Below are positions 7,417-33,025 of a DNA stretch of 33,025 bases, piece by piece. The notes beneath the pieces were generated by a model. That model had not been told where the DNA came from. It saw nothing but the letters and a program-made list of their open reading frames with translations, and did not search any database. Position numbers and translations under genes: made by a program. Within the stretch, counting starts at the first letter, position 1. Each line of letters begins with the position of its first letter. The stretch spans positions 1 to 33,025 of the forward strand of contig NZ_CP143528.1 of the NCBI RefSeq assembly GCF_003846445.2, in the 5' to 3' direction. The stretch is from Synechococcus elongatus PCC 11801. Lineage in GTDB: Bacteria; Cyanobacteriota; Cyanobacteriia; Synechococcales; Synechococcaceae.

Positions 7417-8016
7417 CTAGAAGCGTTTGCTGCCTGCGAGGTTGATCAGAATGCTAGTCGCTGCGGGGCCAAGGATCTCGGGTGGGGCATCGGGTAACTG
7501 TGTCCGTAACTCTTTGAACGCATCCGCCCAAATATTCGCTAGCTCCTCCGGTGTTTTGGGCGCGTGGGCGGCTTGTGCCTCTCTGCCGATACTGCTGGGC
7601 GCTGGCGCGGCTTGTGCTTCCTCAGCGGCTGGGGTGTGGCTTGCTTCAGTTTGGGGTAGGGCTTCAGCGATCGTCCACGTGTTTTTAACTTTGACCATTT
7701 GCACCCGCTGACCTTTCTGAAGATTGAGCAAGACTGGATCGCCGTCGTTCCCATAGACTCGGACTTCTTCGCCGGTATCGCTGACAATCAGAGCTGAAAT
7801 TCTCGGGCCATAACCGTAGTCGCGGGGCTCTCTGGGCAAAAATTTAACGGTTCCACTAGCAAGGCTGACAGCTTGTGCCATTTGGGTTGTCTCCTGTTTT
7901 TGAGTCGGTGCGGGGCGCTGGTCTAAGGTGGGGTCTTCGCTGGCATCCGGCCAGTAGTTTTCTTCTTCGGTGAAATAGTTATCCATTGGATCAAAATGTC
8001 CGTCGTGGTCGTACAT
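7417..8016 (-). CDS. Plasmid accessory protein, possible OB-fold domain
   Basis: A 199-residue protein not recognised with certainty. The N-terminal 45 residues are acidic and probably disordered. Residues about 46-118 (from MAQAVSLASG) alternate short strands in a pattern resembling a small beta-barrel or OB fold. An Ala/Pro/Glu-rich linker follows, then a helical tail. Such a layout suits a single-strand DNA-binding accessory protein, in keeping with the ArdC-like gene just upstream in the same operon (54-base gap). AGGAG lies about ten bases before the ATG. The OB-fold idea is an inference from sequence pattern only. Confidence 0.5.
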   Translation of the reverse strand: MYDHDGHFDPMDNYFTEEENYWPDASEDPTLDQRPAPTQKQETTQMAQAVSLASGTVKFLPREPRDYGYGPRISALIVSDTGEEVRVYGNDGDPVLLNLQKGQRVQMVKVKNTWTIAEALPQTEASHTPAAEEAQAAPAPSSIGREAQAAHAPKTPEELANIWADAFKELRTQLPDAPPEILGPAATSILINLAGSKRF

Positions 8017-8070
8017 GGGGAAAGTCTCCTGAGAGGGGTCAGCGCAGCCGCCCCAGATGGTGATGAGTGA

Positions 8071-8985
8071 TTAAGCGGCGATCGCTTCGGGGCTATTGGC
8101 TTGCAATCCGGCATTAGAGAGCAACAGATCAGCAGCTTTACGGGCTTGGCTTGCAGCCTTAAAGAAGGCTTTCTTGTCGCTGCGCAGTCTTTCCAACCAG
8201 TGATCTAAATAACTGGCGTGATGCTCCAAGTCGGTGATGATGCCAAGGCGATCGCCACAGAAGGCCGCGCTGAGTTCCGCCACCAATTCCTCTAGGGCAT
8301 AGGACGGGCTGCCAAACTTGCCAGACTGATCGCGATCTAAGCGGCTGGGGTGCCCTGTCCAATGGCTCAACTCATGGATCAGCGTTGCGTAGTAACTCTC
8401 CGCGCTGCTGAATGCCGAGAGTTCTGGAACGACAACGCGATCGCCTTTGGGGTAATAGAACGCCTCCGCGCTACCCGTTGTAATTTGCGCTTTCTGGCTG
8501 GTGATGAACTGTTCTACAGCGGCGATCGGCTCGTGCTGCTGCCCTTCGGCTATTGATTCCGCTGGCTTTTTGGTTGTGGCTTCAGAATCATCCAAGCAAT
8601 CCAGATTGAAGGTCTGGAGCCACTTCGCCGACTGATAAAAGCGGGTGACTTCCTCACCGGTTTCGGGATTCTCCTCGGTTTTGCTGGCAGTGCCCGCCCA
8701 CAGAAGCCAAGTTGATTTGGAACCCTTGCGGATTTTCCAGCCCTGCTGCTTGGCTTGGGCGGCTCCGATAAACTGCTGGGACTGGTAGCCGAACAGCATC
8801 GAATCAATCGCACAGATCAACGGATTGCAGCCGCTGTAAACATGACCGCTGAGCGCGTTACGGAATCCGCCAGATTCGACACTCCACGGTTTGACCCATG
8901 GTTTCGTGCCACTCTCCAACAGGGCAATGATTCGGTTGGTGACTTCTTCAAACTTGTCGATTGGCGCGGGCTTGTTATTAGACAC
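8071..8985 (-). CDS. ArdC-like antirestriction protein (ssDNA-binding plus zincin metallopeptidase domain)
   Basis: The N-terminal half (about residues 8-130) matches the ArdC-type ssDNA-binding domain: FEEVTNRIIALLESGTKPW, then GHVYSGCNPL and QGWKIRKGSKST. The C-terminal half is a zincin-like peptidase with HELSH (204-208) followed by WTGH and a downstream LEELVAELSAAF helix that supplies the third metal ligand. Such proteins protect incoming plasmid DNA from host restriction. I prefer GTG at 8985 (304 residues) because GAGAGAAG precedes it and the product starts at the conserved domain. An ATG at 9063 would give 330 residues and overlap the upstream gene. Confidence 0.8.
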   Translation of the reverse strand: MSNNKPAPIDKFEEVTNRIIALLESGTKPWVKPWSVESGGFRNALSGHVYSGCNPLICAIDSMLFGYQSQQFIGAAQAKQQGWKIRKGSKSTWLLWAGTASKTEENPETGEEVTRFYQSAKWLQTFNLDCLDDSEATTKKPAESIAEGQQHEPIAAVEQFITSQKAQITTGSAEAFYYPKGDRVVVPELSAFSSAESYYATLIHELSHWTGHPSRLDRDQSGKFGSPSYALEELVAELSAAFCGDRLGIITDLEHHASYLDHWLERLRSDKKAFFKAASQARKAADLLLSNAGLQANSPEAIAA

Positions 8986-9031
8986 AGTTCTTCTCTCAAG
9001 AGAGAGCGATTTAGTTTGCAGACAGTCGAGA

Positions 9032-9277
9032 TCAAGCAACAGGGCGAGCATTGCGGCGGGCATTTTGCAGCTTTTCCAGCGCTTCTAGCTCGCTCGTGAT
9101 CGCGTGGTCGTAGGTTTCTAAGAGTTCGTCAATGTGACTGAGGAGCGATTTGGGCTGCTCGGCTTGGATGCGGCGACGGATTGCTAAGAGTACAAAGAAC
9201 AGCTCAATATTGGAGGCGCTGAGGATCGACGCATCGATCTCGTTCAACCGCGCTCGGCTGATCGATACTGGAGACAT
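9032..9277 (-). CDS. Small helical protein of unknown function
   Basis: An 81-residue protein starting at the ATG at 9277, preceded by AAGGAAAAAAG. A longer frame to 9382 exists but runs into the neighbouring gene. It appears almost wholly alpha-helical (SRARLNEIDASILSASNIE, then a long charged helix to the C terminus), with no motif I recognise. It sits between the coiled-coil gene and the ArdC-like gene on the same strand, so it is probably co-transcribed and plasmid-related. Confidence 0.5.
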   Translation of the reverse strand: MSPVSISRARLNEIDASILSASNIELFFVLLAIRRRIQAEQPKSLLSHIDELLETYDHAITSELEALEKLQNARRNARPVA

Positions 9278-12308: not shown

Positions 12309-12605
12309 ATCACTGCGTGTCCTCCTCAATATTCTCAATTCCGGCAGAATCAAGGAATACAGCCTGTTCTGACGATTGATGGAGCAGTCAGCCTTGACCT
12401 CAATGATGGGGTCTGGGCTGAACTAGTGGGCGATCGCATTCGACTGACCATCGCGATCGCTGGGGTCACGATGGCTATGCCTCCTCCAGGCATTGGGGAT
12501 GGTGTCAGCAGATCGATAGAAAGGGATGGAGTGATGACAAACATCTTTGTTATTGATGACGAATTGACAAAGGAGTTATGCGGTTTTGCAGTTCTCAATG
12601 GATAA
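12309..12605 (+). pseudogene. Fragment of an RNase II/R-type (RNB-domain) gene
   Basis: After the HNH stop the same frame stays open to a TAA at 12603-12605. Its translation contains PVLTIDGAVSLDLNDGVWAE followed by RIRLTIAIAGV, which mirrors the RNB catalytic signature (usually IDxxxxxDLDDA...VAIADV). Key acidic positions are changed (Asn and Gly where Asp and Ala are expected), there is no start codon, and only about 85 codons remain. I read it as a decayed fragment. A second, more decayed copy lies at 18266-18342. Confidence 0.6.
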
Positions 12606-13530
12606 CTGTCTGCCTAATGGGTGGAAGTTACGCGGTAGTCCAGGAGGGCTCCACGTATTCAACCGGAGTACCGGTCTGAATGTTCTTTTCGATGAGATTC
12701 CTGTTCCCTCCTCGCTCCATTCGCGTGCGCCTCGGCAGGTCTCTATCGCGCTCACGAACCGTTGTGACTTAGCGTGTGCGCACTGCTACGCGCCAAAGTC
12801 TTGTGATGAGCTGCCGCTCGAGGTGATCATGCACTGGCTCGCGGAGTTGGACTCGGCAGGCACTCTCGGAGTCGGCTTCGGCGGCGGAGAGCCAACGCTC
12901 TATCCAGAGTTCGTTAAGCTCTGCCAGTACGCGGCGCACGAAACAGGGCTGTCAGTCTCGTTCACTTCCCACGGCCACCACATCGATAAGAACCTGGCTG
13001 AGCACCTTCGTGGCAGCGTCCACTTCATCCGTGTCAGCATGGACGGTATTGGGACAACCTATGAGTCCATTCGACGTCGTTCGTTCGCAGAGCTGCTTGA
13101 GCGACTCAAGGATGTTCGATCCATCTCGCGCTTCGGTGTGAATGTGGTGGTGAACGATCGCACGCTGCCCGAACTCGATGATGTCGCTCGTATCTCTGCA
13201 GATACTGGCGCTAGCGAGCTTCTTCTTCTTCCCCAAATGCCCGTTCGTAGCGTGCCAGCCGCATCTGTGGACACGCTGCAGGAACTACGTCGTTGGGTAA
13301 ACAGTTACACAGGCCCACTGAAACTTTGCATCAATGAGTCGAGTGCCGAAGGCTTTCCGACTTGCGATCCATTGGGGCAGGAACGCGGACTCCGCGCGTA
13401 CGCACATATTGATGCAATGGGCCTTCTCAAGCCCTCTTCCTATTCGGAAACCGGCGTGCCGCTCGACGGTAGCAGTGTGCTGCAAGCACTCGAATTACTC
13501 TCTCAAGACCTAGTGGAGAATGACAGATGA
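12586..13530 (+). CDS. Radical SAM enzyme
   Basis: A 314-residue protein if translation begins at TTG 12586, which lies ten bases after AGGAG; an ATG four codons later is the alternative. The cluster-binding motif is C60-x3-C64-x2-C67 (TNRCDLACAHCYAPKSC) and the SAM-binding GGGEP follows at 99-103. The chain continues as the usual partial TIM barrel (VSFTSHGHH, FIRVSMDG, VNVVVNDR). The Cys-rich SPASM extension is absent; only single Cys residues occur near the C terminus. It overlaps the next gene by four bases (ATGA), so it acts with the DUF6375-like protein and the large nuclease/NTPase. The substrate is unknown; peptide or nucleotide modification are both possible. Confidence 0.8.
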   Translation: MQFSMDNCLPNGWKLRGSPGGLHVFNRSTGLNVLFDEIPVPSSLHSRAPRQVSIALTNRCDLACAHCYAPKSCDELPLEVIMHWLAELDSAGTLGVGFGGGEPTLYPEFVKLCQYAAHETGLSVSFTSHGHHIDKNLAEHLRGSVHFIRVSMDGIGTTYESIRRRSFAELLERLKDVRSISRFGVNVVVNDRTLPELDDVARISADTGASELLLLPQMPVRSVPAASVDTLQELRRWVNSYTGPLKLCINESSAEGFPTCDPLGQERGLRAYAHIDAMGLLKPSSYSETGVPLDGSSVLQALELLSQDLVENDR

Positions 13531-13940
13531 AAATCTGGTACCAGCATGGTTCGGAGCACTCAGCTAACCTCGTCATGATCGGGCGCTTCAAGGACGTAGC
13601 CGAGGCAACGAAGGCTAAGGAGATTATCGACGCGATCGCAAAGCAGGTTGATAAAGAGCTATCGGAAGGGACATTAACCCTGGGGGACCCACCAGCGCGC
13701 TATGGGGAAGAGATGCTCGAACTTCTAGGAAAGCTGAACGCGGTGACGCTCGGGACGAGTGAGCTCGAACAGTTTTCGTACGAGGTCAGCGTCAAATCCA
13801 AGGGAAGTGATCTTGTTGTCACTACCGAAGAGTACGATATCTCGGCATTCCTCAAGGTGATGCTTTTGCAAGGTGCGCGGATTGAGGTCTACTCTGCACA
13901 CGATCATCCCGACAGCGAGTACGGGAGGGGGCTCGGATGA
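13527..13940 (+). CDS. DUF6375-like small protein, partner of the radical SAM enzyme
   Basis: A 137-residue protein opening with MKIWYQHGSEHSANLVMIGR, a start I associate from memory with the DUF6375 family. It is predicted to be mixed alpha/beta with no enzyme motif. Its ATG overlaps the radical SAM stop, and its own stop lies 13 bases before the ATG of the large nuclease/NTPase, so the three genes form one tight operon. It could be an adaptor, a substrate carrier or the modified target. Family name is moderately confident; function unknown. Confidence 0.6.
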   Translation: MKIWYQHGSEHSANLVMIGRFKDVAEATKAKEIIDAIAKQVDKELSEGTLTLGDPPARYGEEMLELLGKLNAVTLGTSELEQFSYEVSVKSKGSDLVVTTEEYDISAFLKVMLLQGARIEVYSAHDHPDSEYGRGLG

Positions 13941-13953
13941 GCATAGAGCTGAG

Positions 13954-16900
13954 ATGCCAGCGCTGAACTGGGACATCTTCACCTGTCTACCGGGGAGCGC
14001 AGAGAAGAACTTTGAGCTGCTCTGCAGGGGTATCGTGCGCCAGAACTTTGGTAGCTTCGGCACCTTCCGCTCCCTTGCAAACCAACCTGGCGTCGAATTC
14101 CATCTCAAGCTCACTCAACGTTGCGATGCACTCGGCGAGCCGGGTCGTTGGTGGGGCTGGCAGTGCAAATGGTACGAGCTCACGGCAAACGGCACGTTGG
14201 GGGCGAACAGAAGAAAGACAATCGAGGAAGGACTCCGCAAGACAGAAAAGTACCTGCCTGAGCTCACGGACTGGGTACTGTGGACGCGCCGCACATTAAC
14301 GAAAGACGACCAAAAATGGTTCAACGGCCTCTCATCCAAGATGTCACTACACCTGTGGACGGGGGACGAAGTTGACAACTATCTCGTTGGGCAGGCAACG
14401 GTTCTTCGCGGTACCTACTTTGGTGAGCTGGTATTCACTCCTAGCATCCTGTGTGAGCGACACGAACAGGCAGTCGCTCGGATTAAAAAACGATGGCAGC
14501 CTGATGTGCATCATGTTGGCAACACTGAGCGCGAGCTGCGTCGAATGCTCGGTGAAGTGGAGGCGTGGGATACGCTTCTTGATCTGGCGACCGAATTGCG
14601 CGCAAACGTCGAGGCAGTCAAATCCTTGCCGGATGTGCCTACTCAACTTGCGTCATGCGTAGCGGCTGTCATCAGTACCTCGAGCCAACTAGCGAATACC
14701 TTAGACAGGGCCGTGCAGGGAATCCGCGTTGGGGACCTTGACCTTCTTCGTGATGAACTCAATGGTCGTTCACGCGTTCTGCCTGCGGAAGTACAAACCG
14801 CCCCTCGAAAACTTCGATCTGGCAGGCAGATTGCGGCGCTCTACGTGACGAATTTAGTGGCAGCCTGTCACGACGCAATACGGGTGCTTAGCGAGGTTGA
14901 GACGGGTTTTTCTTCGCGTCTAGTCGCAGTCCTTGCTCCCGCAGGATGTGGAAAGACCCAGCTTGCCGCTCAGCTCACAGCAAGCACAACAGATCGTCCG
15001 CATGGAGTGCTGTTACACGGAGGAGACTTACACGCGAACCACACACTTGATGACTTAGCTCGTCGTGTGTCGATCGCGGCGCAGCCTGTGCCAAGCATGG
15101 AGGCACTGCTCGCAGCCATTGATGCTGCTGGTCAGCGTGCTCAGAAACGTCTCCCAATCTTGATCGACGGACTGAATGAGTCGGAAGACCCAAGGAGGTG
15201 GAAGCCGCTGCTCGCCGAGCTAGAGGCTACCCTCGTGAAGTACCCGTACGTGCTGCTGGTCTGCACGCTACGCCCCGAATTTATGGACGATGTGCTTCTT
15301 GACGGAATGCACCATCTCGAGCTGGGCGACTATGGCGAAGAGACCATCGAGGCAATTCACAAACACTTCCGCTACTGGAAGATCGATGCCATCGACGCAG
15401 CTTTGCCCGACCTTCTGAGTCATCCCCTCACGCTACGCCTCTTCTGCGAGGTGACAAACGCACCTCGGCAACAGGTTATTGGAATCGGCTCAATGCCAGG
15501 TTCTCTGACATCGCTCTTCGAGCGATATCTTGAACAGGCCAGCGTACGAGTCGCTGAACTCGCTTCACTCACGCGTCGTTTCTATGCGCAAGACGTTAAT
15601 GCAGCGATCGCGGCGATCGCAGACAAACTTTGGGAATCGAGAGCCCGCTCTATTGAGATCGGTGAGCTTCGAAACATGCTCGGAGATGCGCAGCGTCCGT
15701 GGGACCAGAGCCTTGTTCGCGCGCTGGAACAGGAGGGCGTACTACTCCGCACTCCCTCGAACGGCAGCGATGTGTACGTGCCGGTGTACGACATGTTTGG
15801 TGGGTACATCATCGCCAAAGCGCTACTGGCGAAGCACAGTCGAAGCAGCTTTGAGACGTGGATCAATAATTCTTCTACGATGGCGTTGCTTGCTGGAAGC
15901 CACACTGTTCGGCATCCGCTCGCTGGTGATGTCCTCAGATCATTAGTCGAACAAGTTCCTCGTCGGTTCGACTCGAAGCAAGTCTGGCAGATGGTGGACG
16001 AGCCGCTACGTAGCCGAGCATTGCGGTGTGCGGCGCAACTCGAACCTGCGTTCCTCGATGCGGAGACAGTCGACGCACTGATCGATCTCGTTCGGGCTGG
16101 CGATCCAGAAATACTTACCCGACTCTGGCAGATACGCGGTATGCAAGGCCATCCCCTAAATGCCGATCGTCTGGATCAAGTGCTGCAAAGTATGCCAGTC
16201 GCAGACCGCGATCTTCGCTGGACAGAGTGGATCCGCAGGAACTATGACGACCCCTTGGGGCAAGGCCGAAGCATGCTTCGCGACCTTGAGTCTCTAAAGG
16301 ATCGCTGGCGAGGCGGGCACATTCGTCCGGGCGATCGGCTACGTGCGCGTTGGGTCATGTGGACACTCACGAGCACCGTTCGACGCCTGCGCGATCAGGC
16401 CACTTGCGCTCTGTACTGGTTCGGACGCCACAATCCTGAAGGGCTTTTCGCTCTGACAATCGAGTCGCTGCCAGTGAACGACGCTTATGTAGGCGAGCGG
16501 ATGCTTGCGGCGGCATACGGTGTGGTGATGAGCCACCAGCAGGCGGATGATGGGTTTGCAGCTCATCTAGGACCATTTCTCCAGCAGCTCGCATCGGCAC
16601 TCGTGGGGCAGTCAGCGATCGCCCCGACGCAGCACTACTTGGCGCGGCTCTATGTACGCGGTATCGTTGCCTTCGCTGCAAAGTTCTATCCCAGCTTGCT
16701 GCCCACTGCGTTAAGCGGTAAATGGATATTCGCCTCACCTCCACCCGTACAGTCCCTCGTCGATGGCGATGCTGGAGCTGAAGAGGCAGGACAAACGCTG
16801 CACATGGACTTCAAGAACTACACGTTGGGGAAACTTTTCGACGAGCGTAGAAACTATGACATGAGCCATACGGGACATCAGGCAGCCGTAGCTCATGTGT

Positions 16901-17949
16901 GCGGGGTTGTATGGACGCTCGGATGGAGAGCGGCTCGCTTTGACGCGCTAGATCGCCAGATTGCTGAAAGCGCCTATCACTATAGCCGTACAGATCGGTC
17001 ACGCGTAGAGCGGTATGGGAAGAAATACGGATGGACTGGATTCTTCACGTATGCCGGGCTCCTTGAGGAACAAGGGCTGTTGCCACATGGCAGCTCCTTC
17101 TCTGACGTCGATATTGATCCTTCATTCCCTGAACAATCACCTATCGATGGGACGCCCACATCTCCCGAGGTCTGGCTATCCCCATCCACCAAGAGCCACG
17201 AGCAATGGGTTCGAGAGAGCTCTACTTCCGTGCCTCATAACCTTCTCGTTCGGGAGAAGATTGGTGAGCATGATGGACCGTGGGTTGCTGTCTACGGATT
17301 TGTCTCGGCTGAGGACAGGGTACTCGGGCGCGGGGCATGGGCCTTCATCTCGGCGTTCGTGACCCCAAAACAGACATCGCAACAACTGGTAGATGCTCTG
17401 AAAGATGGTTTGCGGCCATGGGTAGCTAGCAACATTCCCAGCGACTACTACACATTCGCTGGCGAGATCCCTTGGCACCCACGCTTCGCCGCCGAAGTAC
17501 TTGCCGAATCTGGCCTGGAGCATGCATACCGAGAGACCATTCACGTTGGTACGCGCAACGTGGTGGTTGAGATCCTCTCGCATACCTACGAGTGGGAGAC
17601 CTACCACAATGAGATCAACCGAGCTGGCAGTGTGTACGTGCCGTCTCGGCATTTCTCAGCACGGTTTGACCTGCGGAGCATGCCGCAAGGATTTGATCAG
17701 TATCTGCCCAATGGCACAAAAGCGACCATTACGTTGAGTAGTGTCGATGGACTAAAAGGCAACGTACTGTATGTTCGGGAAGACCTGCTTCAGCAATACA
17801 TCGGTGACCGCACTGTAGTGTGGTTTTCATTCGGCGAGCGTGAGTTGCGACCCTATCCACCATCACCACCGCAATGGCTCGTGGATGCTCAGCAGAAACA
17901 AGAAAATGCGTGGACTGAGGTACTAACCGAGGCTGACTTTAGGCCCTAG
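13954..17949 (+). CDS. Large restriction-nuclease-like/P-loop NTPase protein (STAND- or Avs-like architecture)
   Basis: A 1331-residue protein from the ATG at 13954. Residues about 5-165 look like a PD-(D/E)xK nuclease: GVEFHLKL with Glu48 and WWGWQCKWYE with Gln70-x-Lys72, as in Mrr-type domains. A helical linker leads to a P-loop NTPase with Walker A LAPAGCGKT (327-335) and Walker B LPILIDGLNE (400-409). The remaining ~900 residues are long helical repeats and a C-terminal region, a plausible sensor. Nuclease, switch and large sensor in this order resemble Avs4-like phage sensors, though I see no proof of homology. GC content is normal and some HIP1 sites occur, so it may come from another cyanobacterium. 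A Lys-rich tail is encoded just past the stop in another frame. Confidence 0.7.
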   Translation: MPALNWDIFTCLPGSAEKNFELLCRGIVRQNFGSFGTFRSLANQPGVEFHLKLTQRCDALGEPGRWWGWQCKWYELTANGTLGANRRKTIEEGLRKTEKYLPELTDWVLWTRRTLTKDDQKWFNGLSSKMSLHLWTGDEVDNYLVGQATVLRGTYFGELVFTPSILCERHEQAVARIKKRWQPDVHHVGNTERELRRMLGEVEAWDTLLDLATELRANVEAVKSLPDVPTQLASCVAAVISTSSQLANTLDRAVQGIRVGDLDLLRDELNGRSRVLPAEVQTAPRKLRSGRQIAALYVTNLVAACHDAIRVLSEVETGFSSRLVAVLAPAGCGKTQLAAQLTASTTDRPHGVLLHGGDLHANHTLDDLARRVSIAAQPVPSMEALLAAIDAAGQRAQKRLPILIDGLNESEDPRRWKPLLAELEATLVKYPYVLLVCTLRPEFMDDVLLDGMHHLELGDYGEETIEAIHKHFRYWKIDAIDAALPDLLSHPLTLRLFCEVTNAPRQQVIGIGSMPGSLTSLFERYLEQASVRVAELASLTRRFYAQDVNAAIAAIADKLWESRARSIEIGELRNMLGDAQRPWDQSLVRALEQEGVLLRTPSNGSDVYVPVYDMFGGYIIAKALLAKHSRSSFETWINNSSTMALLAGSHTVRHPLAGDVLRSLVEQVPRRFDSKQVWQMVDEPLRSRALRCAAQLEPAFLDAETVDALIDLVRAGDPEILTRLWQIRGMQGHPLNADRLDQVLQSMPVADRDLRWTEWIRRNYDDPLGQGRSMLRDLESLKDRWRGGHIRPGDRLRARWVMWTLTSTVRRLRDQATCALYWFGRHNPEGLFALTIESLPVNDAYVGERMLAAAYGVVMSHQQADDGFAAHLGPFLQQLASALVGQSAIAPTQHYLARLYVRGIVAFAAKFYPSLLPTALSGKWIFASPPPVQSLVDGDAGAEEAGQTLHMDFKNYTLGKLFDERRNYDMSHTGHQAAVAHVCGVVWTLGWRAARFDALDRQIAESAYHYSRTDRSRVERYGKKYGWTGFFTYAGLLEEQGLLPHGSSFSDVDIDPSFPEQSPIDGTPTSPEVWLSPSTKSHEQWVRESSTSVPHNLLVREKIGEHDGPWVAVYGFVSAEDRVLGRGAWAFISAFVTPKQTSQQLVDALKDGLRPWVASNIPSDYYTFAGEIPWHPRFAAEVLAESGLEHAYRETIHVGTRNVVVEILSHTYEWETYHNEINRAGSVYVPSRHFSARFDLRSMPQGFDQYLPNGTKATITLSSVDGLKGNVLYVREDLLQQYIGDRTVVWFSFGERELRPYPPSPPQWLVDAQQKQENAWTEVLTEADFRP

Positions 17950-24840: not shown

Positions 24841-25614
24841 CTAAGGCGTCATAACAATTTGCAAGGCAACCTCTACCTTCACTTGCCCACCAACTTGCTC
24901 TAGCCACCGCACCCGTCTCACCCGTCCGGAGTAGGGTGCTTTGACCACCAAAGCATCGAGCTGCGCTTGCACTGAGTTCAGTTCCATCTGTCGTTGCTGG
25001 GCTTGCCACTGATTGAGCTTGTTTTGGCGTTGTGCTTGAGCGATCGCATTTTGGAGTCGCTGCTCTGTGGCTTTGAGTTGCTGCTGAGCGACTTGGACTT
25101 GCAGGGCTTGTTGATCACGAGCGATCGCCGCAAGGTCTGCTTCTCGTTGGGGGCGAAGTCCCTGCTCAGCAAAGGATTGCGCTCGCTCTGCATCGGCTTG
25201 AGCTGTCGTCAGACGCGACTGAGCTTGTAGCAGTGAGAGCTGAGCTTGTTCCCGAGCAGCAGCAGCTTCTTGAGGCTGAGAGCTAGGCAAAGCTGGCGGT
25301 TGGGATAACTCAAACTGCAACTGAGCGAGTCGAGTTTGGAGAGTAGCTCGTCCAGGGCGTAGAGCGATCGCTTGCCCTGCTTGGAGGCGATCGCCTTCGA
25401 CGATTTGCAAGTCTTCGGGCTTTTCCACATCGAACTTGAGCTTGAGTTGTCGGGGTTGATTGGATTTTCCAGAGTCGGTTTCTGCTTCGGGTTCAGTAGC
25501 AGTGGTTGCTTCAACTGGGGCAATGGGCTGAGGACTGGGCGCTTCAGCGGTGGCAGAAGAGCAGGCAGCGATCGCCAGCATCAGGAGCAAGAGAACGAGG
25601 GCTTGCTGGATCAT
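24841..25614 (-). CDS. HlyD-like periplasmic adaptor, lipoprotein
   Basis: Starts at the ATG at 25614, overlapping the stop of the upstream ATPase gene (ATGA), and has 257 residues. The N terminus is a lipoprotein signal peptide with lipobox AIAAC and Cys18 as the acylated residue. After an acidic Pro/Ala linker come a half-lipoyl-like piece (VEGDRLQAGQAIALRPG, 72-89), a long alpha-helical hairpin (about 92-222), and the returning half VKAPYSGRVRRV (224-235). That is the membrane-fusion-protein layout, bridging inner and outer membranes. No classical ABC or RND transporter is encoded beside it, and it is the last gene of a five-gene operon with a HerA/VirD4-like ATPase. Confidence 0.7.
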   Translation of the reverse strand: MIQQALVLLLLMLAIAACSSATAEAPSPQPIAPVEATTATEPEAETDSGKSNQPRQLKLKFDVEKPEDLQIVEGDRLQAGQAIALRPGRATLQTRLAQLQFELSQPPALPSSQPQEAAAAREQAQLSLLQAQSRLTTAQADAERAQSFAEQGLRPQREADLAAIARDQQALQVQVAQQQLKATEQRLQNAIAQAQRQNKLNQWQAQQRQMELNSVQAQLDALVVKAPYSGRVRRVRWLEQVGGQVKVEVALQIVMTP

Positions 25615-26720
25615 GATTCGGCTCCTTGGCGCTGCCAGTAGGGATGGATTTGGACATGGCGCAGCTGCACCCCAAAGCGGCAAATGGCTTCGAGGGGCTG
25701 AAGCTTGGCAAGCCGGTCTTCACTAAGCCGGAAGCGTCGGGCAACCGTTCTCACCTCGGTTTGATCGACAGGCAGGACAACCTTCGTCGCGCTGTTGCGC
25801 AGAACTTCAGCTGACAAGTGCTGCTCCGACTGACTCGCGAGGACGATCGCCAGACCGTACTTGCGGCCATCCATAAGCACACGGTCTAAGACAGAACTGC
25901 CTCTGAGTTCTTTCGCTTCATCAATGAAGAGAACCGTCTTAACCTGATCCGCCTCGCCATTGAGCCGGTGGTTGCTAAGCTCTTGAGCCACAAACGATTC
26001 CGCTGCCAGCGCCGCAATCTCGGGCGGGAGCTTACATAAATCCAGTCGGAGTAAAGGTTGATTCGATTCCGACTGGGGACGGGAGAAGACGCCATAGCGG
26101 AACAGCGCCGCCAGTTTGAGTTGCAGTCGCTTGGCTTCGGCCAGACCCGATTCCGCTTGCATGGCTAGAAAGCGCTCAAGGTCTGCAAAGGTGGGTGGCT
26201 CAAAACGCCACGTTTCCTCAGCCGTGGTGATGCCGCGATGCCGATAGCACTGGTCGAACAGGTTGAGCAGCAAGCCCTCTTGATTCGGACCGAGCTTGAG
26301 CAAGCGGCGAAGACTAGCCGCGACAGCGATCGCTTGCAGACCCGGACCACCACCTTCAGGATCGGGATGCACCGTCAGTGGCGCGATACCCCACGGACTG
26401 CACTGATGTAGCGGAATGACGGTTTCCTCGGGTAGGGACTGGTCGCCGTGGAAATCAAGAACACGGACTCTGAGATCCGGCTGCTGTTGATGAAGACTAT
26501 GGGCGATCGCCTTGAGGGTCTGAGTTTTGCCAGAACCCGAGGCACCCAGAATCACAGCATGGGCATTGGTCAGGGCTTCAGGTTGCCAGTGGCAATGGCC
26601 ACCGAGCCAGACTTGTAGACCACTTACTTCAGCAGCAGAGTCAGCCTCTGTTTCTGCTGAGTGAACAGGCGATCGCTGTTCAGGGAGTGGAATGACAGCA
26701 GGGGGAAAGCGATCGGTCAT
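25611..26720 (-). CDS. HerA/VirD4/TraG-like DNA-pumping ATPase
   Basis: A 369-residue P-loop ATPase. Walker A is GASGSGKT (59-66), preceded by AHAVILG. VRVLDFHGDQ follows at 85-94, Walker B is VLFIDEA (263-269), and LASQSEQ (294-300) is the sensor-like motif typical of VirD4, TraG and HerA ATPases. There is no transmembrane helix. Such ATPases move DNA through pores in conjugation or process DNA ends. Its ATG overlaps the stop of the membrane protein upstream by four bases, with GGAG eight bases before it. Placement between a membrane hydrolase-like protein and an HlyD-like adaptor is unusual for a known conjugation system. Confidence 0.72.
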   Translation of the reverse strand: MTDRFPPAVIPLPEQRSPVHSAETEADSAAEVSGLQVWLGGHCHWQPEALTNAHAVILGASGSGKTQTLKAIAHSLHQQQPDLRVRVLDFHGDQSLPEETVIPLHQCSPWGIAPLTVHPDPEGGGPGLQAIAVAASLRRLLKLGPNQEGLLLNLFDQCYRHRGITTAEETWRFEPPTFADLERFLAMQAESGLAEAKRLQLKLAALFRYGVFSRPQSESNQPLLRLDLCKLPPEIAALAAESFVAQELSNHRLNGEADQVKTVLFIDEAKELRGSSVLDRVLMDGRKYGLAIVLASQSEQHLSAEVLRNSATKVVLPVDQTEVRTVARRFRLSEDRLAKLQPLEAICRFGVQLRHVQIHPYWQRQGAES

Positions 26721-27766
26721 GGTCGAACTCCAGAGGAGGGAATGAGGCGACGGGCAACAAGACGGCCTCGGGCAGGGCTATCACCCAGCAGGGGAAGGAT
26801 CTGGTCGGGCGGAGCCGATTGGAGATGAGCAAGGAAACGGCCATTGCCCATGCCTTGCAACCTCAGCGGCTCAAAGTGAAAAGGATCAGGAATGCGCTCT
26901 GGTTCCTCATCGAGTTCCAGTACCCCTGAGAGATAGGCATCCTTGGGGATGGGTGGATCCACTTCATTGAGAGTGGTGTCATCGAACTCCAGCGTTCGCA
27001 ACTCAACTTGGATTGGCTGAACCCGCTCAACTCGTAATCGCCAAACCTGTAGCTGAGCTTCTTGGCTTTGGCCAGCGCGATAGAGCCAGCCTTCTTCGTC
27101 TTGGAGCAGGACATCAAGCTGAGTGATAGCGGCGAGAACACGGTAAACCTTGCCTGTAATCGGTTGTTGGGTCAGCCGTTCCACACCCCACGCTTCTGCT
27201 TGCAGTTCCCAGCGATCGCCCTCGCTCAAGACCAACTCAACAGCACTAGATGGCATGCCCATCCAGCCCTCAATCGAGCGCATCAAGCCGCCACCGCTGT
27301 TCATGAATAGAGAGAAAGCCAGAGTGAAGGCCAAGACCGAAACCAACAGATATTCGATACGGCTGCCTGTACTGAGCCTGAGTCTGGGATTGCCTGGAAT
27401 CACTAACCTTGCCTGATACGGCCAGAAGGCAGCTACGCCCGTCTTGGTGAAGCAATCAGCGAACCAGCCGAAGCTGTAGCCCAAGACAATCGCGCCCCAG
27501 ATTTGCAGGGAAACAAAGATTACTGGCGAGAACAACAGGGCGATCGCTGCTGTCGCCACAAGGCTGTGAGTCAGCGTCCGATGCGGCCAGTGGCGTTCAA
27601 TGCGGCGACTAATGGGAAACAAGAGCCGCCCCATCCACGAGTGGGAGGTGTCTGCGTCTGGGAGTTGACCAGCGATCGCTCCCACCCCAATCAGCAGCGG
27701 TGAAGCTGTGCCGAGACACAAAGCCACGCCGCAGGCACTAGCAAGGCTATGGGTGAGTGCCATCAT
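26717..27766 (-). CDS. YdjM/DUF457-type membrane protein (putative metal-dependent hydrolase) with a C-terminal extension
   Basis: From ATG 27766, overlapping the upstream stop (ATGA), 349 residues; a second ATG follows at once. The first 160 residues match the YdjM family: MALTHSL with His6, GAIAGQLPDAD (Asp37/Asp39), then HWPHRTLTHSL with His59, His62 and His67, interspersed with three or four hydrophobic segments. The remaining ~190 residues form a soluble beta-rich extension that I do not recognise and that is not usual for the family. The metal-ligand pattern suggests a phospholipase-like or other hydrolase at the inner membrane. Its coupling to ATPases on both sides points to a role in one membrane complex. 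Confidence 0.65.
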   Translation of the reverse strand: MMALTHSLASACGVALCLGTASPLLIGVGAIAGQLPDADTSHSWMGRLLFPISRRIERHWPHRTLTHSLVATAAIALLFSPVIFVSLQIWGAIVLGYSFGWFADCFTKTGVAAFWPYQARLVIPGNPRLRLSTGSRIEYLLVSVLAFTLAFSLFMNSGGGLMRSIEGWMGMPSSAVELVLSEGDRWELQAEAWGVERLTQQPITGKVYRVLAAITQLDVLLQDEEGWLYRAGQSQEAQLQVWRLRVERVQPIQVELRTLEFDDTTLNEVDPPIPKDAYLSGVLELDEEPERIPDPFHFEPLRLQGMGNGRFLAHLQSAPPDQILPLLGDSPARGRLVARRLIPSSGVRP

Positions 27767-28677
27767 CGGCCTAACCTCTGGCTGCCCCGAGGCAAGCGCC
27801 CGACCAAGAACCGCGCCATCAGTGCCACCACGGTCAAGATGCCGCCAATGACATAGAGGCTGCGATTGCCATAGCCGAGGCCGATGTATCTGAGAACGAT
27901 CAGGCTCGCCAACCCACAGACCACGATGGGAGTGCCATCGATCCACTGACGGTGATCCGGTGCCGTTTCATCCAGACCCAGAAAGGCTTCTCTGACAACT
28001 CGCCCCGCCAGCAGGGGATTACCACCACAGCGAGCTTGCAGAGCGGAAAGATCAGCAGCACTCAACTCCAAGCCCAGTTGCTCTGCTTCGGCTTGCATCA
28101 ACTCGCGAATCTGACCATCGCGCAGTGGCTCCAGCTCCAATCGCGGCAATTTGAGAAAGAGATCCTTAGCTGGTGGATTCGTCGCCAACAGGAGCATTGG
28201 CACACTCAAAGGAAGCAACTGTTCCAGCCAAAGGCGGAACGCTGCGGGGCAGCGCTGGACTTGATCAATCACCAGAAAGACCGGCTCTGGCCAGTTCTCT
28301 AGTTCCTCACGCAGAGTCTCAGCAAAGAGCGCAACCGTCTGGCGCTGCTCCGGTTCAATCTCTAGTTGCTCCGCCACTTGGATCAGCAACTGGCGCTGAG
28401 TCAACGGCTGGGGCAGGGTCACAACCGTGTAGCCAACTGAGCGCAGCTCCTCAACCACGGCGCGACTGAGACGACTCTTGCCGCTGCCCGCTTCACCCAC
28501 AACCAGCAAGCTTTCCGCAGCCCGAAGACTAGCGATGATCCGCTGCTTTTCTCGTTGGCGATAGCGGAAAGCATCCAGCGACGGAATGGAGCTGCGATTC
28601 CCGTCCTCATCGACGAGGTAGTGATACTCCTTCTGCTCACCACTGGCGAGCTGTCTTCGGTGGCGCTCAATCCACAT
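27763..28677 (-). CDS. ExeA/TniB-like AAA ATPase with two C-terminal membrane helices
   Basis: Starts at ATG 28677 in a TGATG overlap with the preceding gene; 304 residues. Walker A is GEAGSGKS (61-68), Walker B is PVFLVIDQVQ (132-141), and a sensor-like strand MLLLATNPPA lies at 161-170. This is the small AAA+ type seen in ExeA and TniB. The C terminus carries two transmembrane helices (about 250-267 and 273-292), so the ATPase is anchored to the membrane, as in the GspA/ExeA assembly ATPases. It should energise assembly or movement at the envelope together with the downstream gene products. Confidence 0.7.
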   Translation of the reverse strand: MWIERHRRQLASGEQKEYHYLVDEDGNRSSIPSLDAFRYRQREKQRIIASLRAAESLLVVGEAGSGKSRLSRAVVEELRSVGYTVVTLPQPLTQRQLLIQVAEQLEIEPEQRQTVALFAETLREELENWPEPVFLVIDQVQRCPAAFRLWLEQLLPLSVPMLLLATNPPAKDLFLKLPRLELEPLRDGQIRELMQAEAEQLGLELSAADLSALQARCGGNPLLAGRVVREAFLGLDETAPDHRQWIDGTPIVVCGLASLIVLRYIGLGYGNRSLYVIGGILTVVALMARFLVGRLPRGSQRLGR

Positions 28678-29696
28678 CAGGCCACCTTCTTGAGTTGTTT
28701 CCAAGCCGCGATGAAACGCCGACTACAACGCTGCCCGCTCTGGGTTTCCACCCAAGTCATCAGCTGGGAATAGGACTGTAAGCCCCGCGCCGTCGCTTCG
28801 TCGAGCAAGCGATAGACCTCACGTGTTCTGGGACTGAGATCGTGGGGATAGTCAGCAAACACTCGAATAGAGTCTGCATTCCCGACCGTTCCCTGAGTCA
28901 TTGAAGTTGGGAACGGCGATCGTTCCGTGGTCTTTGTTGTCGGGAACGATTCAGGAGTTTGTAATGGCTTGTGCAACTCCCATGGCGGTGGTGGCAGAGG
29001 TCGAGGAGACTGGGAACGTGCCTCTGCTTCTGTTGGGAACGGTTGAGGGAACGGGGTGATTTCAGCTTGGGAACGCTCCGCAGAATCCACCGCAACAGGT
29101 ACGACCTCCAGCAGTGCTTCCGATGTTTCAGACAAGTCAACCGCGATCGGGAACGCCTCAGGAACGATTGCAAGTTGGGATTGGGAACGAGCATGGGAAC
29201 GGGGTGCCTCAGCCGCTGTTTCAGAAGCTGCCAAAGGCCGTTCCCCCGAAAAATCACTGGGGGAAGTTGGAGAACTGTGTGTCTCTATAAGAGGCCACCT
29301 TGAAACGGACGGTTTAGCGCCATCAGACTGGCCATCACAGTCAGAGACAGGAAAGAGCCGCGATCGCCCCTGAGCAGGGCTGGGGGAAGCCGGAGTTGCT
29401 GTTTCAGTTGGGAACTGCGCGGGGCTTTGAGTGAAGGGAACGGCCTCGGGTGCTGGTGCTGTTGGGGTCGCGATCGCTGTAGGAAGAGAAGTACGTTCCC
29501 GCTCAGTCTTGGATCGTTCCCGACCGTGGTTTGGATTGGGAACGGTCAAGCCCGTGGACAGAGGGAACGCCGACCAGACGGGGGAGAGTTCCCCGACGAG
29601 TGAGGAGGTCAGGAACGGTTCCGTTCCCGATAGGAACTGGCCGATCTGTTGAGCCGTTCCCTTGAACCAGCTGACTGTTTTTTGCAACCGTTCCAT
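28677..29696 (-). CDS. Pro/Ser/Thr-rich protein with a conserved C-terminal domain, first gene of the five-gene operon
   Basis: A 339-residue protein with three parts: a short amphipathic N terminus (MERLQKTVSWFKG...), a disordered Pro/Ser/Thr/Glu-rich middle (about 35-270), and a folded C-terminal domain (about 275-339; DLSPRTREVYRLLDEATARG, then TWVETQSGQRCSRRFIAAWK). The last part could be a winged-helix-like DNA-binding domain. The middle is shaped by 18 copies of the heptamer CGTTCCC/GGGAACG, read in both orientations and all three frames (Val-Pro, Phe-Pro, Arg-Ser and so on), so the DNA motif rather than the peptide seems to be kept. The stop overlaps the next ATG (TGATG). The ribosome binding site GGGGAAC is itself part of a near-copy of the motif. 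Confidence 0.6.
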   Translation of the reverse strand: MERLQKTVSWFKGTAQQIGQFLSGTEPFLTSSLVGELSPVWSAFPLSTGLTVPNPNHGRERSKTERERTSLPTAIATPTAPAPEAVPFTQSPAQFPTETATPASPSPAQGRSRLFPVSDCDGQSDGAKPSVSRWPLIETHSSPTSPSDFSGERPLAASETAAEAPRSHARSQSQLAIVPEAFPIAVDLSETSEALLEVVPVAVDSAERSQAEITPFPQPFPTEAEARSQSPRPLPPPPWELHKPLQTPESFPTTKTTERSPFPTSMTQGTVGNADSIRVFADYPHDLSPRTREVYRLLDEATARGLQSYSQLMTWVETQSGQRCSRRFIAAWKQLKKVA

Positions 29697-30469
29697 CAGC
29701 GTTGTTCCCCAATGCTGCTTTCATTTGTAAGAGCATTCCCACCAAATCAGGGAAGCCATGATCTGGCCACACCCCTGTGAGAACGACAGAGAACGGTCTT
29801 TAAACGATTGGGAACGATTTTAGATTCCTATACAAAAAGCTGAGGGAACGCCCCCAAGCACTAGCAATTAATATAAGCGTTCCCAAATTTAGAAATAGCC
29901 CGAGGGAACGGCTGCCGTTCCCAGAAAGAATCCCATCGTTCCCTCACCATTATCCTTGGGAAATCTAACTAAAACTTGCCCGCTAAGAAGCCGTTCCGTG
30001 ATGCTTAAGTGATGGCGATCGCGGGCGGGGAGTCACAATCGTTCCCGACAGTGAAAGATCAGCAGGGAACGAAGCAGCAGATATCCCAACAGCAAGCTTG
30101 CGTCCCCACCGGTGATCGTTCCCACCGTTGGAACGGTTTTAATCAGACCGTTCCCGACAGCATTCCCTTGATAATTTAGCCACCGTTTCCAGAGAAAAAG
30201 AATTCTACTCTACACCGTTCCCTCTACAGTCAATCAATAGCTAGCCAGTCTAAAAGCAATTGCATAAGTAATCAGAAACTAGCGAGCTAAAGATTGGGAA
30301 TGCTACGGATGATCGCGTGGGAACGGGTTGGGAACGCCTGCTTTTGTAGGACTGGGAACGGTCATTGAGAAGCACTGATTCCCCCCGACTGCGATCGCTG
30401 AAAGCGGCTCTAGGAGCGAGGCTGTTCCAGAAAGTCTTTAGATTCTGACCTGCTTTTTAGTGCGTTCCC
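28887..30469. repeat. Array of 33 GGGAACG/CGTTCCC heptamers
   Basis: I count 33 exact copies (19 as GGGAACG, 14 as CGTTCCC on the plus strand), about one per 48 bases, plus many one-off variants. Elsewhere in the plasmid I noticed only about three scattered copies. Common longer forms are TTGGGAACG and CGTTCCCGAC. The array covers most of the first operon gene and the whole gene-free region 29697-30507 upstream of it. Spacing is irregular, so it is not a tandem repeat or CRISPR. It has the look of clustered protein-binding sites: a centromere, origin or transfer site, or a chromatin-like zone. Confidence 0.9.
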
Positions 30470-30507
30470 GACCCTCACTGAAGCAAAGGAATGAAGGAGT
30501 TCAGCCC

Positions 30508-30780
30508 ATGACTACGGATCAACTGTTTACGATCGCGACCCAACTAGGACCGGAGGAACTACGGGAACTGGTACTGAGCTTGCAAGGATTATTAGAAGTG
30601 CAAGGTCATCCGCTTGAGAATCAGGAGAAGTCACAAGGCTCGATTGAACTGAAGATGATCAACGGCTGCGGACCCTATGCCTATCTGCGCTACTACAAGG
30701 GACAGAAGAACGGTAAGAAGTCTTATGGCTCTCGCTATTTGGGCAAAGGAGCTACGCAGATAGCCAGTGAGCAAAGTTAG
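30508..30780 (+). CDS. Small DUF6788-like protein
   Basis: A 90-residue protein starting at ATG 30508 with AAGGAG eight bases upstream. The N-terminal half is helical (TDQLFTIATQLGPEELRELV). The C-terminal half holds SIELKMINGCGPYAYLRYY and GSRYLGKG, reminiscent of the DUF6788 type of small proteins with a GPYxYLR..YLGK pattern. Function unknown. It directly abuts the heptamer array and may be transcribed out of it. Confidence 0.6.
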   Translation: MTTDQLFTIATQLGPEELRELVLSLQGLLEVQGHPLENQEKSQGSIELKMINGCGPYAYLRYYKGQKNGKKSYGSRYLGKGATQIASEQS

Positions 30781-30845
30781 GGAATCCCTGACTCCCTAAG
30801 TAAGATTTCTTGGGTCTTAAACTAAGGTTTCGCAGAGGAAATAGT

Positions 30846-31316
30846 ATGAAGGTCTGGCTCGGGGTATTGCTGCTGGCGTTGGTCGTGCCTGCTCCGGCGA
30901 TCGCCCAAACGGTCACACGGGTCAGTGATGGCGATACGATCCGTGTCTTGCTTAACGGGAAAGAGGAACGAGTTCGCCTCGCCTGTATTGATGCCCCAGA
31001 GATGCGGCAGACCCCATTTGGCGTTGCCAGTCGCGATCGCTTGCGGCAACTCACGCCAGTCGGTTCAACCGTCAGGCTGCGGACTTTGACCCGCGATCGC
31101 TATGGGCGAATTGTGGCGGAGGTGTTTCACCAAGGCAAGAACGTGAACCTGCAGCTAGTCAGAGAAGGACAGGCAGTGGTGTACCGGCAGTATCTACAAG
31201 GCTGCGATCGCAATGCTTACCTACCTGCGGAGTTGGAAGCGAAGCAGAGGCGATCGGGCTTTTGGCAGCAGGAGGAGCCGATGATGCCGTGGGACTTTAG
31301 GAGAGCAGGAAGTTGA
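30846..31316 (+). CDS. Secreted thermonuclease (SNase-like)
   Basis: A 156-residue nuclease with an N-terminal signal peptide (MKVWLGVLLLALVVPAPAIA, cleavage likely after residue 20). The SNase fold is clear: VSDGDTIRVLLNG (25-37), VRLACIDAPE (43-52) with Arg44 and Asp50, RDRYGRIVAEVF (92-103) and VREGQAVVYRQY. It hydrolyses DNA and RNA with Ca2+ in the periplasm or outside the cell. GAGG precedes the ATG. Plasmid-borne SNases are often linked to conjugation or nucleotide salvage; here it follows the DUF6788-like gene after 65 bases and may share its transcript. Confidence 0.85.
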   Translation: MKVWLGVLLLALVVPAPAIAQTVTRVSDGDTIRVLLNGKEERVRLACIDAPEMRQTPFGVASRDRLRQLTPVGSTVRLRTLTRDRYGRIVAEVFHQGKNVNLQLVREGQAVVYRQYLQGCDRNAYLPAELEAKQRRSGFWQQEEPMMPWDFRRAGS

Positions 31317-31443: not shown

Positions 31444-31496
31444 TATTCAACGGCATAAGAGACTGCCCTCTCTTCATTTACGTTCAATTTTTGCTA

Positions 31497-32615
31497 ATGT
31501 TCAATAAAAATGAACAGTCAAAAATTTTGAACAAACGAGCTCACATGGTGGCTGCTGAAGTTGATATACAGCTGGCTCTATCTCGATTCAGCTCTCAAAC
31601 AGGTATCCCTGCTCATCTGGAGCCAAGTTATGAGACGGAAAAAAATGATTGCTTCTGGTCTGAGGGAATTGTGAGTCTCCATTCCCGCGCTGGATTAAGT
31701 CATTGGCAAGTGGTAGCTCGTCCAATTAAGAACGCAGCTGAAATCGCTGCGATCGCCAACATAAAAGACTTTAGCGATCGATCTCTCTTGCTGATTACTT
31801 CTCAACTCAGTCCAGGGCTTGCCCAGACTTGCCGCACTCTCGATCAAGCCTTTATCGATACTGCTGGCAACGCCTTCATCCAGAAAGGGAATCTGCTAAT
31901 TTTCATTAGCGGACAGCGGGCACGATCGACGAAAACTACTGCTTTTACTGGTAAATCGCTTACCCCTGTCGGACTAAAAGTTCTATTTCTCCTACTAAGC
32001 TATCCCGAGTTTATTTCTGCTCCCTTCCGAGTAATTGCCCGAGCCTCTGGAGTTTCTCTTGGTAGCGTAGCCGCCACGATTGCTGATCTAGAAAAACGTG
32101 GCTACTTAATAGCCTCTAAGAGAGGCCGTCCATTAATCCTGCAACATCAAGCCCAACTACTCGAGGAATGGTTACTGGAATATCCCTTGCGGCTACGTCC
32201 AAAGCTGACCTGCTGGCGATTCGCGATAGCACCCGAAACATGGCGATCCATTCAGCCTGCCGATTATGGTGGACTCTGGGGAGGAGAGCCAGCAGCAGCC
32301 CTGCTGAGACAATCTCTTAGACCTGAGCAACTAACCCTATATCTTGATCCAGTAACTGCTGCGAAAAGTGTGACACAGCTTGTCAGAGACTATAGGCTAC
32401 GTCATGATCCTGCAGGAAAACTTGAAGTATTTGCTGCTTTCTGGTCTTTTGCGGAATTACCCTCTTTGATGAAGCAATGTGTTCCTCTTCCTATCGTGAT
32501 TGCTGATCTTCAAGCTAGTCTCGATCCGCGCAACTTGGAGATTGCTCAAGATCTCAAAATTTGGTGGTCTCACTATCCAGAAAATTTTAGCTATAGAGTC
32601 ATCAATACTCTCTAA
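31497..32615 (+). CDS. abiEi: AbiEi-family antitoxin (type IV toxin-antitoxin)
   Basis: A 372-residue protein. A winged helix lies at about 156-212 (TPVGLKVLFLLLSYPEF, VIARASGVSLGSVAATIADL, then the wing KRGRPLILQ). The C-terminal domain ends with VIADLQASLDPRNLEIAQ, the hallmark ADL...DPRN..IA block of AbiEi proteins. The protein represses the operon through DNA binding and separately counters the toxin without a stable complex. It is followed after 61 bases by the AbiEii-type toxin. The start is taken as ATG 31497 without a clear Shine-Dalgarno; ATG 31545 would be 16 codons shorter. The DNA is moderately AT-rich. Confidence 0.8.
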   Translation: MFNKNEQSKILNKRAHMVAAEVDIQLALSRFSSQTGIPAHLEPSYETEKNDCFWSEGIVSLHSRAGLSHWQVVARPIKNAAEIAAIANIKDFSDRSLLLITSQLSPGLAQTCRTLDQAFIDTAGNAFIQKGNLLIFISGQRARSTKTTAFTGKSLTPVGLKVLFLLLSYPEFISAPFRVIARASGVSLGSVAATIADLEKRGYLIASKRGRPLILQHQAQLLEEWLLEYPLRLRPKLTCWRFAIAPETWRSIQPADYGGLWGGEPAAALLRQSLRPEQLTLYLDPVTAAKSVTQLVRDYRLRHDPAGKLEVFAAFWSFAELPSLMKQCVPLPIVIADLQASLDPRNLEIAQDLKIWWSHYPENFSYRVINTL

Positions 32616-32676
32616 ACTCTAAACCAAAATACATAAAATCCAAAACCTGTTTAGGCTTTCAATCACAACCTCCAGA

Positions 32677-33025
32677 ATGCAACACCGTATATTCCAAGTC
32701 CAATCCCCGATCCATCCTGAACTGGCCAACATTCTTCGAACAATTCAAACAGCATCTCGCGATCTGAATATTGATCTTTTTTTGATTGGTGCAACTGCTC
32801 GTGATCTTTGGTTGGTTTACATCTTTGGCCTATCCAGATCTCGCTTAACTCGTGATGTTGACTTTGCAGTCGCTCTACCAACGTGGGAAAGTTTCTTTGA
32901 GTTAAAGAATTCTCTTATCTCTAACTATGGATTTACTGCAGACTCTAACCCTCGACGTCACCATCGCTTATCGCTACAAGCTCAGATTTATAACACTATT
33001 GATATAATCCCCTTCGGAGAATTAC
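32677..33025 (+). CDS. abiEii: AbiEii-type nucleotidyltransferase toxin, N-terminal part (continues at 1..536)
   Basis: The first 116 codons of the 294-residue toxin, from ATG 32677. The nucleotidyltransferase core is visible: LIGATARDLW (36-45), where the G-A-T stands for the usual GGT, and LTRDVDFAV (57-65) with metal-binding Asp60 and Asp62, followed by IDIIPFGEL at the cut. The chain continues in frame at base 1. Pairing with AbiEi supports the assignment. Confidence 0.85.
   Translation, partial: MQHRIFQVQSPIHPELANILRTIQTASRDLNIDLFLIGATARDLWLVYIFGLSRSRLTRDVDFAVALPTWESFFELKNSLISNYGFTADSNPRRHHRLSLQAQIYNTIDIIPFGEL

Follow-up and report, generated by a model that had tools for sequence, protein, structure and literature searches.

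The stretch of Synechococcus elongatus PCC 11801 DNA analyzed here, 33,025 bases long and hereafter called the window, is a complete contig of a 2.8-Mb genome, and the closest sequences to it are S. elongatus plasmids. It raises one question: what reads the word GGGAACG/CGTTCCC, which is crowded into about 1.6 kb of it? We counted the word over the whole window and found 33 of its 36 copies at positions 28887 to 30469, in near-equal orientations (14 and 19). This confirms the number, the location, and the mixed orientation reported in the initial annotation of this DNA. Dinucleotide shuffles of the whole window (n = 100) gave a mean of 3.14 copies and a maximum of 10, versus the 36 observed. 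The array overlaps the first gene of an operon, here called geneA. Eighteen sites are within its coding sequence, in several reading frames and on both strands, and 15 are upstream of it. The features concerned are as follows.

28887 to 30469, both strands: array of 33 GGGAACG/CGTTCCC sites, defined by word count, flanks, conservation, and grid
28677 to 29696, minus strand: geneA, 339 amino acids, the proposed reader, with a weakly amphipathic N-terminal helix, a linker, and a C-terminal helix-turn-helix (HTH)
29625 to 29696, minus strand: possible amphipathic N-terminal helix of geneA, from the hydrophobic moment (weak)
28692 to 28832, minus strand: predicted three-helix C-terminal HTH of geneA, from an AF2 model of a 77-residue stretch (A2)

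The initial annotation had allowed that the word might be a general signature of the genome, such as HIP1. This explanation fails, because the genome contains only 273 copies in 2,804,843 bases, fewer than the 558 copies of a reversed-word control, and because all 14 close pairs found genome-wide with the gapped pattern GGGAACGN{0,30}GGGAACG lie in the array. Synonymous codon shuffling of geneA (n = 1,000) gave a mean of 2.8 words and a maximum of 8, versus 18 observed; thus, the sites in geneA are unexplained by codon use or protein sequence.

The initial annotation had also proposed a motif count in related plasmids. We found GGGAACG arrays at the same position in four S. elongatus plasmids: the window (33 sites), pIITB6_2 (L009; 24 sites), pIITB6_1 (L011; 44 sites), and L012 from UTEX 3055 (42 sites). 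In ungapped alignments of geneA, 17 of the 18 window sites were identical in pIITB6_1, versus 12% of the other 7-mers in the array part; the corresponding values were 15 of 18 versus 11% for L012 and 13 of 18 versus 25% for pIITB6_2. Site conservation was also above background over the whole array region, where the aligner may favor sites. Outside the sites, the linker codons of geneA had dN/dS values of 0.37 to 0.58, and those of the HTH had values of 0.00 to 0.08. A structural DNA array would in this way shape its probable reader protein, conserving the site codons as the remaining linker sequence drifts. The flanks vary from site to site but are also constrained: of the 143 sites in the four plasmids, 2 have a G immediately before the word, and 2 have a T immediately after it. 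The conservation of the word and these limits on its flanks are the marks of a putative bound site some nine bases long.

The spacing of the sites had been described as irregular. We found instead that site-to-site distances cluster around multiples of about 11.5 bp regardless of orientation, a grid of roughly one copy per helix turn. Against two nulls of 4,000 trials each, one with jittered and one with random placement, the whole window array was matched in 0 of 4,000 trials in both. The coding half of the window array gave 0/4,000 and 0.00025, and the upstream half was nonsignificant (0.29 and 0.36). The whole arrays of pIITB6_1 and L012 each gave 0/4,000 in both nulls, and their upstream halves gave 0.0005 to 0.0055. 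The whole pIITB6_2 array gave 0.003 and 0.008, with a nonsignificant upstream half (0.36 and 0.49). These four arrays are homologous, so the tests in them are not independent.

A fifth plasmid, pIITB8_1 (L010), and its near-copies L032 and L033 carry a switched word, CCGGAAC/CGGAACG instead of GGGAACG. At the array place, each has 2 copies of GGGAACG, 22 to 23 of CGGAACG, and 22 to 23 of CCGGAAC; the switched array of pIITB8_1, the CCGGAACG array, is the counterpart of the GGGAACG array. For the switched word, CCGGAAC alone was nominally phased (0.02 to 0.04), and the other two counts were unphased. Despite its different word, pIITB8_1 is the closest to pIITB6_1 of the four plasmids compared. 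The two are 100% identical in ParA and in its partner, 98% in the operon ATPase, 96% in the TrwB-like protein, 94% in YdjM, 92% in both CyRepA1 and the last operon gene, 86% in the SNase, and 85% in a small open reading frame (ORF). The geneA product, at 34% identity, is the sole strongly differing shared protein; its C-terminal stretch, residues 284 to 334, is 58.8% identical between pIITB8_1 and the window protein.

Because the word switches with geneA while no other shared protein follows it, we concluded that the reader is most likely the geneA product itself. Of the candidate readers suggested at the outset, the operon's own first product fits, and ParB and CyRepA1 do not, since the word follows neither. 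We also rejected the small ORF (30460 to 30780) and the SNase (30810 to 31316). Same-worded plasmids are 61 to 82% identical to pIITB6_1 in the small ORF and 82 to 89% in the SNase, versus 85 and 86% for pIITB8_1, so neither protein follows the word. As the sites and geneA occupy the same DNA, linkage accounts for part of their covariation. As a comparison of sequences, the switch demonstrates a cassette, and it rules out other readers better than it proves geneA. Site conservation, the flank constraint, the helical grid, and the switched word in a sister plasmid together give good support, at the level of sequence, to the initial view of the cluster as binding sites for one protein.

The window geneA product has no Pfam or NCBIfam match, and searches of PDB sequences with the queries A2 and A3 gave nothing under an E value of 0.7. 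In the AF2 model of A2, helices span residues 27 to 41, 47 to 58, and 64 to 73, with a pLDDT of about 89 over the helices; comparisons of this HTH model with the PDB (Foldseek, VIA-align) gave weak matches, with a best Z score of 6.2. The N-terminal helix has a hydrophobic moment of 0.37 to 0.46 in five homologues, with weak single-window shuffle P values of 0.01 to 0.07. The linker is long and poorly conserved, and it carries the sites. Type I relatives of geneA beyond S. elongatus have the HTH, and no GGAACG array was found in seven of them (L047, L048, L053, L056, L060, L095, and L098). The ATG of the next gene, an AAA ATPase, overlaps the geneA stop codon (TGATG). This gene, the rest of the operon, and a further plasmid gene that bears on transfer are listed here.

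27763 to 28677, minus strand: AAA ATPase (AAA_22/AAA_16) with two C-terminal transmembrane segments
26717 to 27766, minus strand: YdjM-like inner-membrane protein (PF04307, E = 1.4e-20) with three transmembrane-like segments; start taken from homologues, frame open up to 27946
25611 to 26720, minus strand: TrwB/HerA-like DNA-pump ATPase (PF10412, TrwB_AAD_bind, E = 1.5e-10)
24841 to 25683, minus strand: last operon gene, a membrane- or lipid-anchored coiled-coil protein, weakly HlyD-like
8071 to 9063: ArdC-type antirestriction protein (PF08401 and PF18818)

The TrwB/HerA-like ATPase also matches NCBIfam CedD with an E value of 8e-13, far below the cut-off, and its matches to VirB4 and HerA are partial. 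Among the 58 loci with room for these genes, YdjM follows the ATPase in 53 and TrwB/HerA in 38.

On balance, we lean toward the view that the array is a centromere-like docking site, one that would place the plasmid for inheritance and possibly also for transfer. We infer that the geneA HTH protein would bind many GGGAACG words, mostly in phase with the DNA helix, and that the bound copies would build one large nucleoprotein over about 1.6 kb of the plasmid. This complex might be held at the membrane through the N-terminal helix of geneA together with the membrane AAA ATPase, the YdjM protein, and the TrwB/HerA-like ATPase, and, so held, it would position the plasmid. On this view, the linker of geneA would mostly be what the array happens to encode, so that reader and sites would be inherited and exchanged as one cassette. 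Against the docking site stands strain IITB6, which has two plasmids, pIITB6_2 and pIITB6_1, that share the word and have an almost identical HTH; a centromere that sets incompatibility would not easily allow such sharing. In addition, all five compared plasmids also carry ParA-type genes, and most distant loci lack an array in the scan described below. The nonsignificant grid in the upstream half of the window array and for most counts of the switched word, the seven type I relatives without a GGAACG array, and the weak PDB matches of the HTH model also weigh against it.

The main rival is that the array is a transfer start: either the geneA product or the TrwB/HerA-like ATPase would assemble there and drive double-stranded plasmid DNA into another cell, in the manner of TraB on Streptomyces plasmids, which acts at the clt repeats. 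We regard it as unlikely, even though it accounts for the word sharing in IITB6 better than a plain centromere does, since one word on two plasmids of the same cell would be harmless. The TrwB_AAD_bind match and the partial CedD, VirB4, and HerA matches speak for a transfer start, and the ArdC gene is compatible with it. FtsK-type sites are direct repeats that set a direction; the near-equal orientations of the array are unlike them, and polarized KOPS-type sites are disfavored by the same mixture. Furthermore, TrwB/HerA was not found in 20 of the 58 loci with room, and the annotated sister plasmids showed no relaxase or mating genes and are typed as nonmobilizable.

It is improbable that the array is an operator through which the geneA product represses its own operon. 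The array does lie upstream of and within the first operon gene, as an operator might, but repression would need far fewer than 33 to 44 sites over 1.6 to 1.8 kb, of which about half are intragenic, and the array is maintained across four plasmids.

We consider it very improbable that the array is the parS of the plasmid ParB or a set of CyRepA1 iterons. Dense repeats are typical of both, and ParB-type and CyRepA1 genes are both on the plasmid. However, the identical ParA and partner of pIITB8_1 and pIITB6_1 accompany two different words, and one word accompanies three kinds of par locus: the window and L012 are alike (92 and 91%), pIITB6_2 has a second kind, and pIITB6_1 has a third. CyRepA1 similarity does not track the word either, as the pIITB6_1 protein is 92% identical to that of the differently worded pIITB8_1 and 83 to 85% identical to those of same-worded plasmids, and the rep gene is 6.4 kb from the array in the window. 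A short word in many copies could also be a miniature HIP1 that multiplied locally without any reader, but this is scarcely credible for a word that keeps to a single region, the same one in four plasmids, whose sites are conserved beyond background and have constrained flanks, that follows a helical grid, and that has been exchanged for another word.

Returning to the docking site, we looked at the operon in other lineages. The operon ATPase occurs in 41 plasmid records, which are cyanobacterial among the matches listed, and at 65 loci from 84,980 species genomes, nearly all of them cyanobacteria; relatives outside the cyanobacteria (L067, L090, and L094) are in Acidobacteria or Blastocatellia bins. 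We scanned 74 loci for dispersed words, leaving out HIP1-like words; 62 had at least 1.8 kb upstream. At a score of at least 7, the best word cluster was upstream in 12 of the 62, elsewhere in 7, and absent in 43; the upstream zone makes up 22% of a locus on average. The 12 upstream loci include two from S. elongatus and five from Synechocystis, so the independent lineages are fewer than 12.

The array words are lineage specific: [CT]GGACAA in five Synechocystis loci, CAGACA in Nostocales, and CAGTGGA in Picosynechococcus. With each word picked from the same loci in which it was counted, [CT]GGACAA occurred 55 times upstream versus 24 elsewhere in Synechocystis, and CAGACA occurred 82 times upstream versus 119 in a stretch seven times longer in Nostocales. 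CAGACA is strong in 3 of 19 Nostocales loci (L063, L068, and L069) and missing upstream in three. Phasing in L063, L068, and L069 was at 10.9 bp (P ≤ 0.0013); in Synechocystis, it was at 10.6 to 10.7 bp and at best marginal (0.03 to 0.21). Many sites in L068 repeat every 33 bases, so part of its pattern is a repeat unit. The sites in L063 and L069 are largely within an Asp-, Ser-, and Pro-rich N-terminal extension of the first gene, as in geneA. The first gene of the Synechocystis and the L063/L068/L069-type Nostocales loci belongs to a family different from geneA, and its model matches RacA-DNA (prob 1.00) and centromere-bound pSK1 Par (0.99). In Anabaena sp. 90, the first-gene place is taken by a protein with a KfrA N-terminal domain (PF11740, E = 2.1e-7); the window protein has no Pfam match to KfrA.

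Known systems resemble this locus in part. In the account of Streptomyces plasmid pIJ101 given in the relevant parts of PMC4170104, SpdA2 has sps sites in its own coding region, and its loss affects segregational stability and not transfer. The geneA product, predicted to bind DNA through its HTH and with 18 of 33 sites inside its own gene, would share this arrangement. By the same portion of that report, sps consists of one to three 12-bp palindromes, unlike the 24 to 44 short nonpalindromic 7-bp words here, and SpdA2 is zinc-finger-like, with no operon ATPase of the present kind described for it there. StbA of R388, as presented in the sections of PMC3098194 that concern its sites, has two sets of five 9-bp repeats with two-base gaps, an 11-bp period, at its promoter; it keeps R388 stable and positioned and tunes conjugation. 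The likeness is one of layout: StbA heads an operon that also encodes an ATPase and has sites with a period of about 11 bp, compared with the 11.5-bp grid of about here. The stbDRs are direct repeats around a promoter on a conjugative plasmid (PMC3098194); the words here occur in both orientations. RacA and pSK1 Par are described in the relevant part of PMC11500499 as DNA-tethering segregation proteins, with RacA using centromere-like sites that occur repeatedly. Among the structural matches of the modeled Synechocystis first gene, the DNA-binding domain of these proteins ranks best; as far as modeled, the window geneA appears to differ, with a predicted three-helix C-terminal HTH rather than the RacA/pSK1 Par fold. 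Finally, the Streptomyces clt locus, as outlined in PMC4170104, has 8-bp TRS repeats read by TraB itself and likewise pairs a short-repeat cluster with an FtsK/HerA-class ATPase. The present locus differs in its mixed orientations and its separate candidate HTH reader.

Little is understood of how large cyanobacterial plasmids segregate, or of how those lacking a relaxase spread, and our search of the open literature found no paper describing such an array or operon. We tentatively suggest, as a possibility and not an expectation, that an undescribed positioning and transfer machine is common to cyanobacterial plasmids. A changeable first-gene DNA-binding protein would read a helically phased array, in several lineages inside its own gene, and hand the plasmid to the membrane AAA ATPase, the YdjM protein, and the TrwB/HerA-like pump. 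Word and reader would switch as a cassette, and the system would move plasmids now typed as nonmobilizable. The conserved operon comes with its cis site and a candidate reader, and two natural sister plasmids have switched words, so that this reader is testable by one gel-shift experiment.

We also made several minor observations. An alignment scan of viral_contigs with the operon ATPase found no relative. The same collection has at least 120 stretches with three close GGGAACG words; among the matches listed, the highest density is 18 copies within 1.6 kb, and L153 is among such contigs. The ArdC-type protein of pIITB6_1 is 85 to 94% identical to those of other plasmids, which suggests that the plasmids move between cells. 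The par loci of pIITB8_1 (845 to 2055) and pIITB6_1 (7727 to 8937) also seem to be exchanged as cassettes, because they encode the identical ParA and partner while other shared genes are mostly 85 to 98% alike. In the window, a radical SAM protein and then a 1,358-residue protein without any Pfam match are encoded at 12586 to 17949, and 31491 to 33025 hold an AbiEi-like antitoxin/regulator (PF09952) and, after it, a reading frame that the end of the contig truncates. A ThsA macro-domain protein (Thoeris, PF20016, E = 6e-47) lies near an exonuclease/AAA protein (627 to 1544 and 2161 to 4593); these are probable defense genes. In plasmid pSTA7437.03 (L035), we found a GTTACCA cluster in the parA-parB region (4871 to 5695), which is perhaps that plasmid's own partition site.
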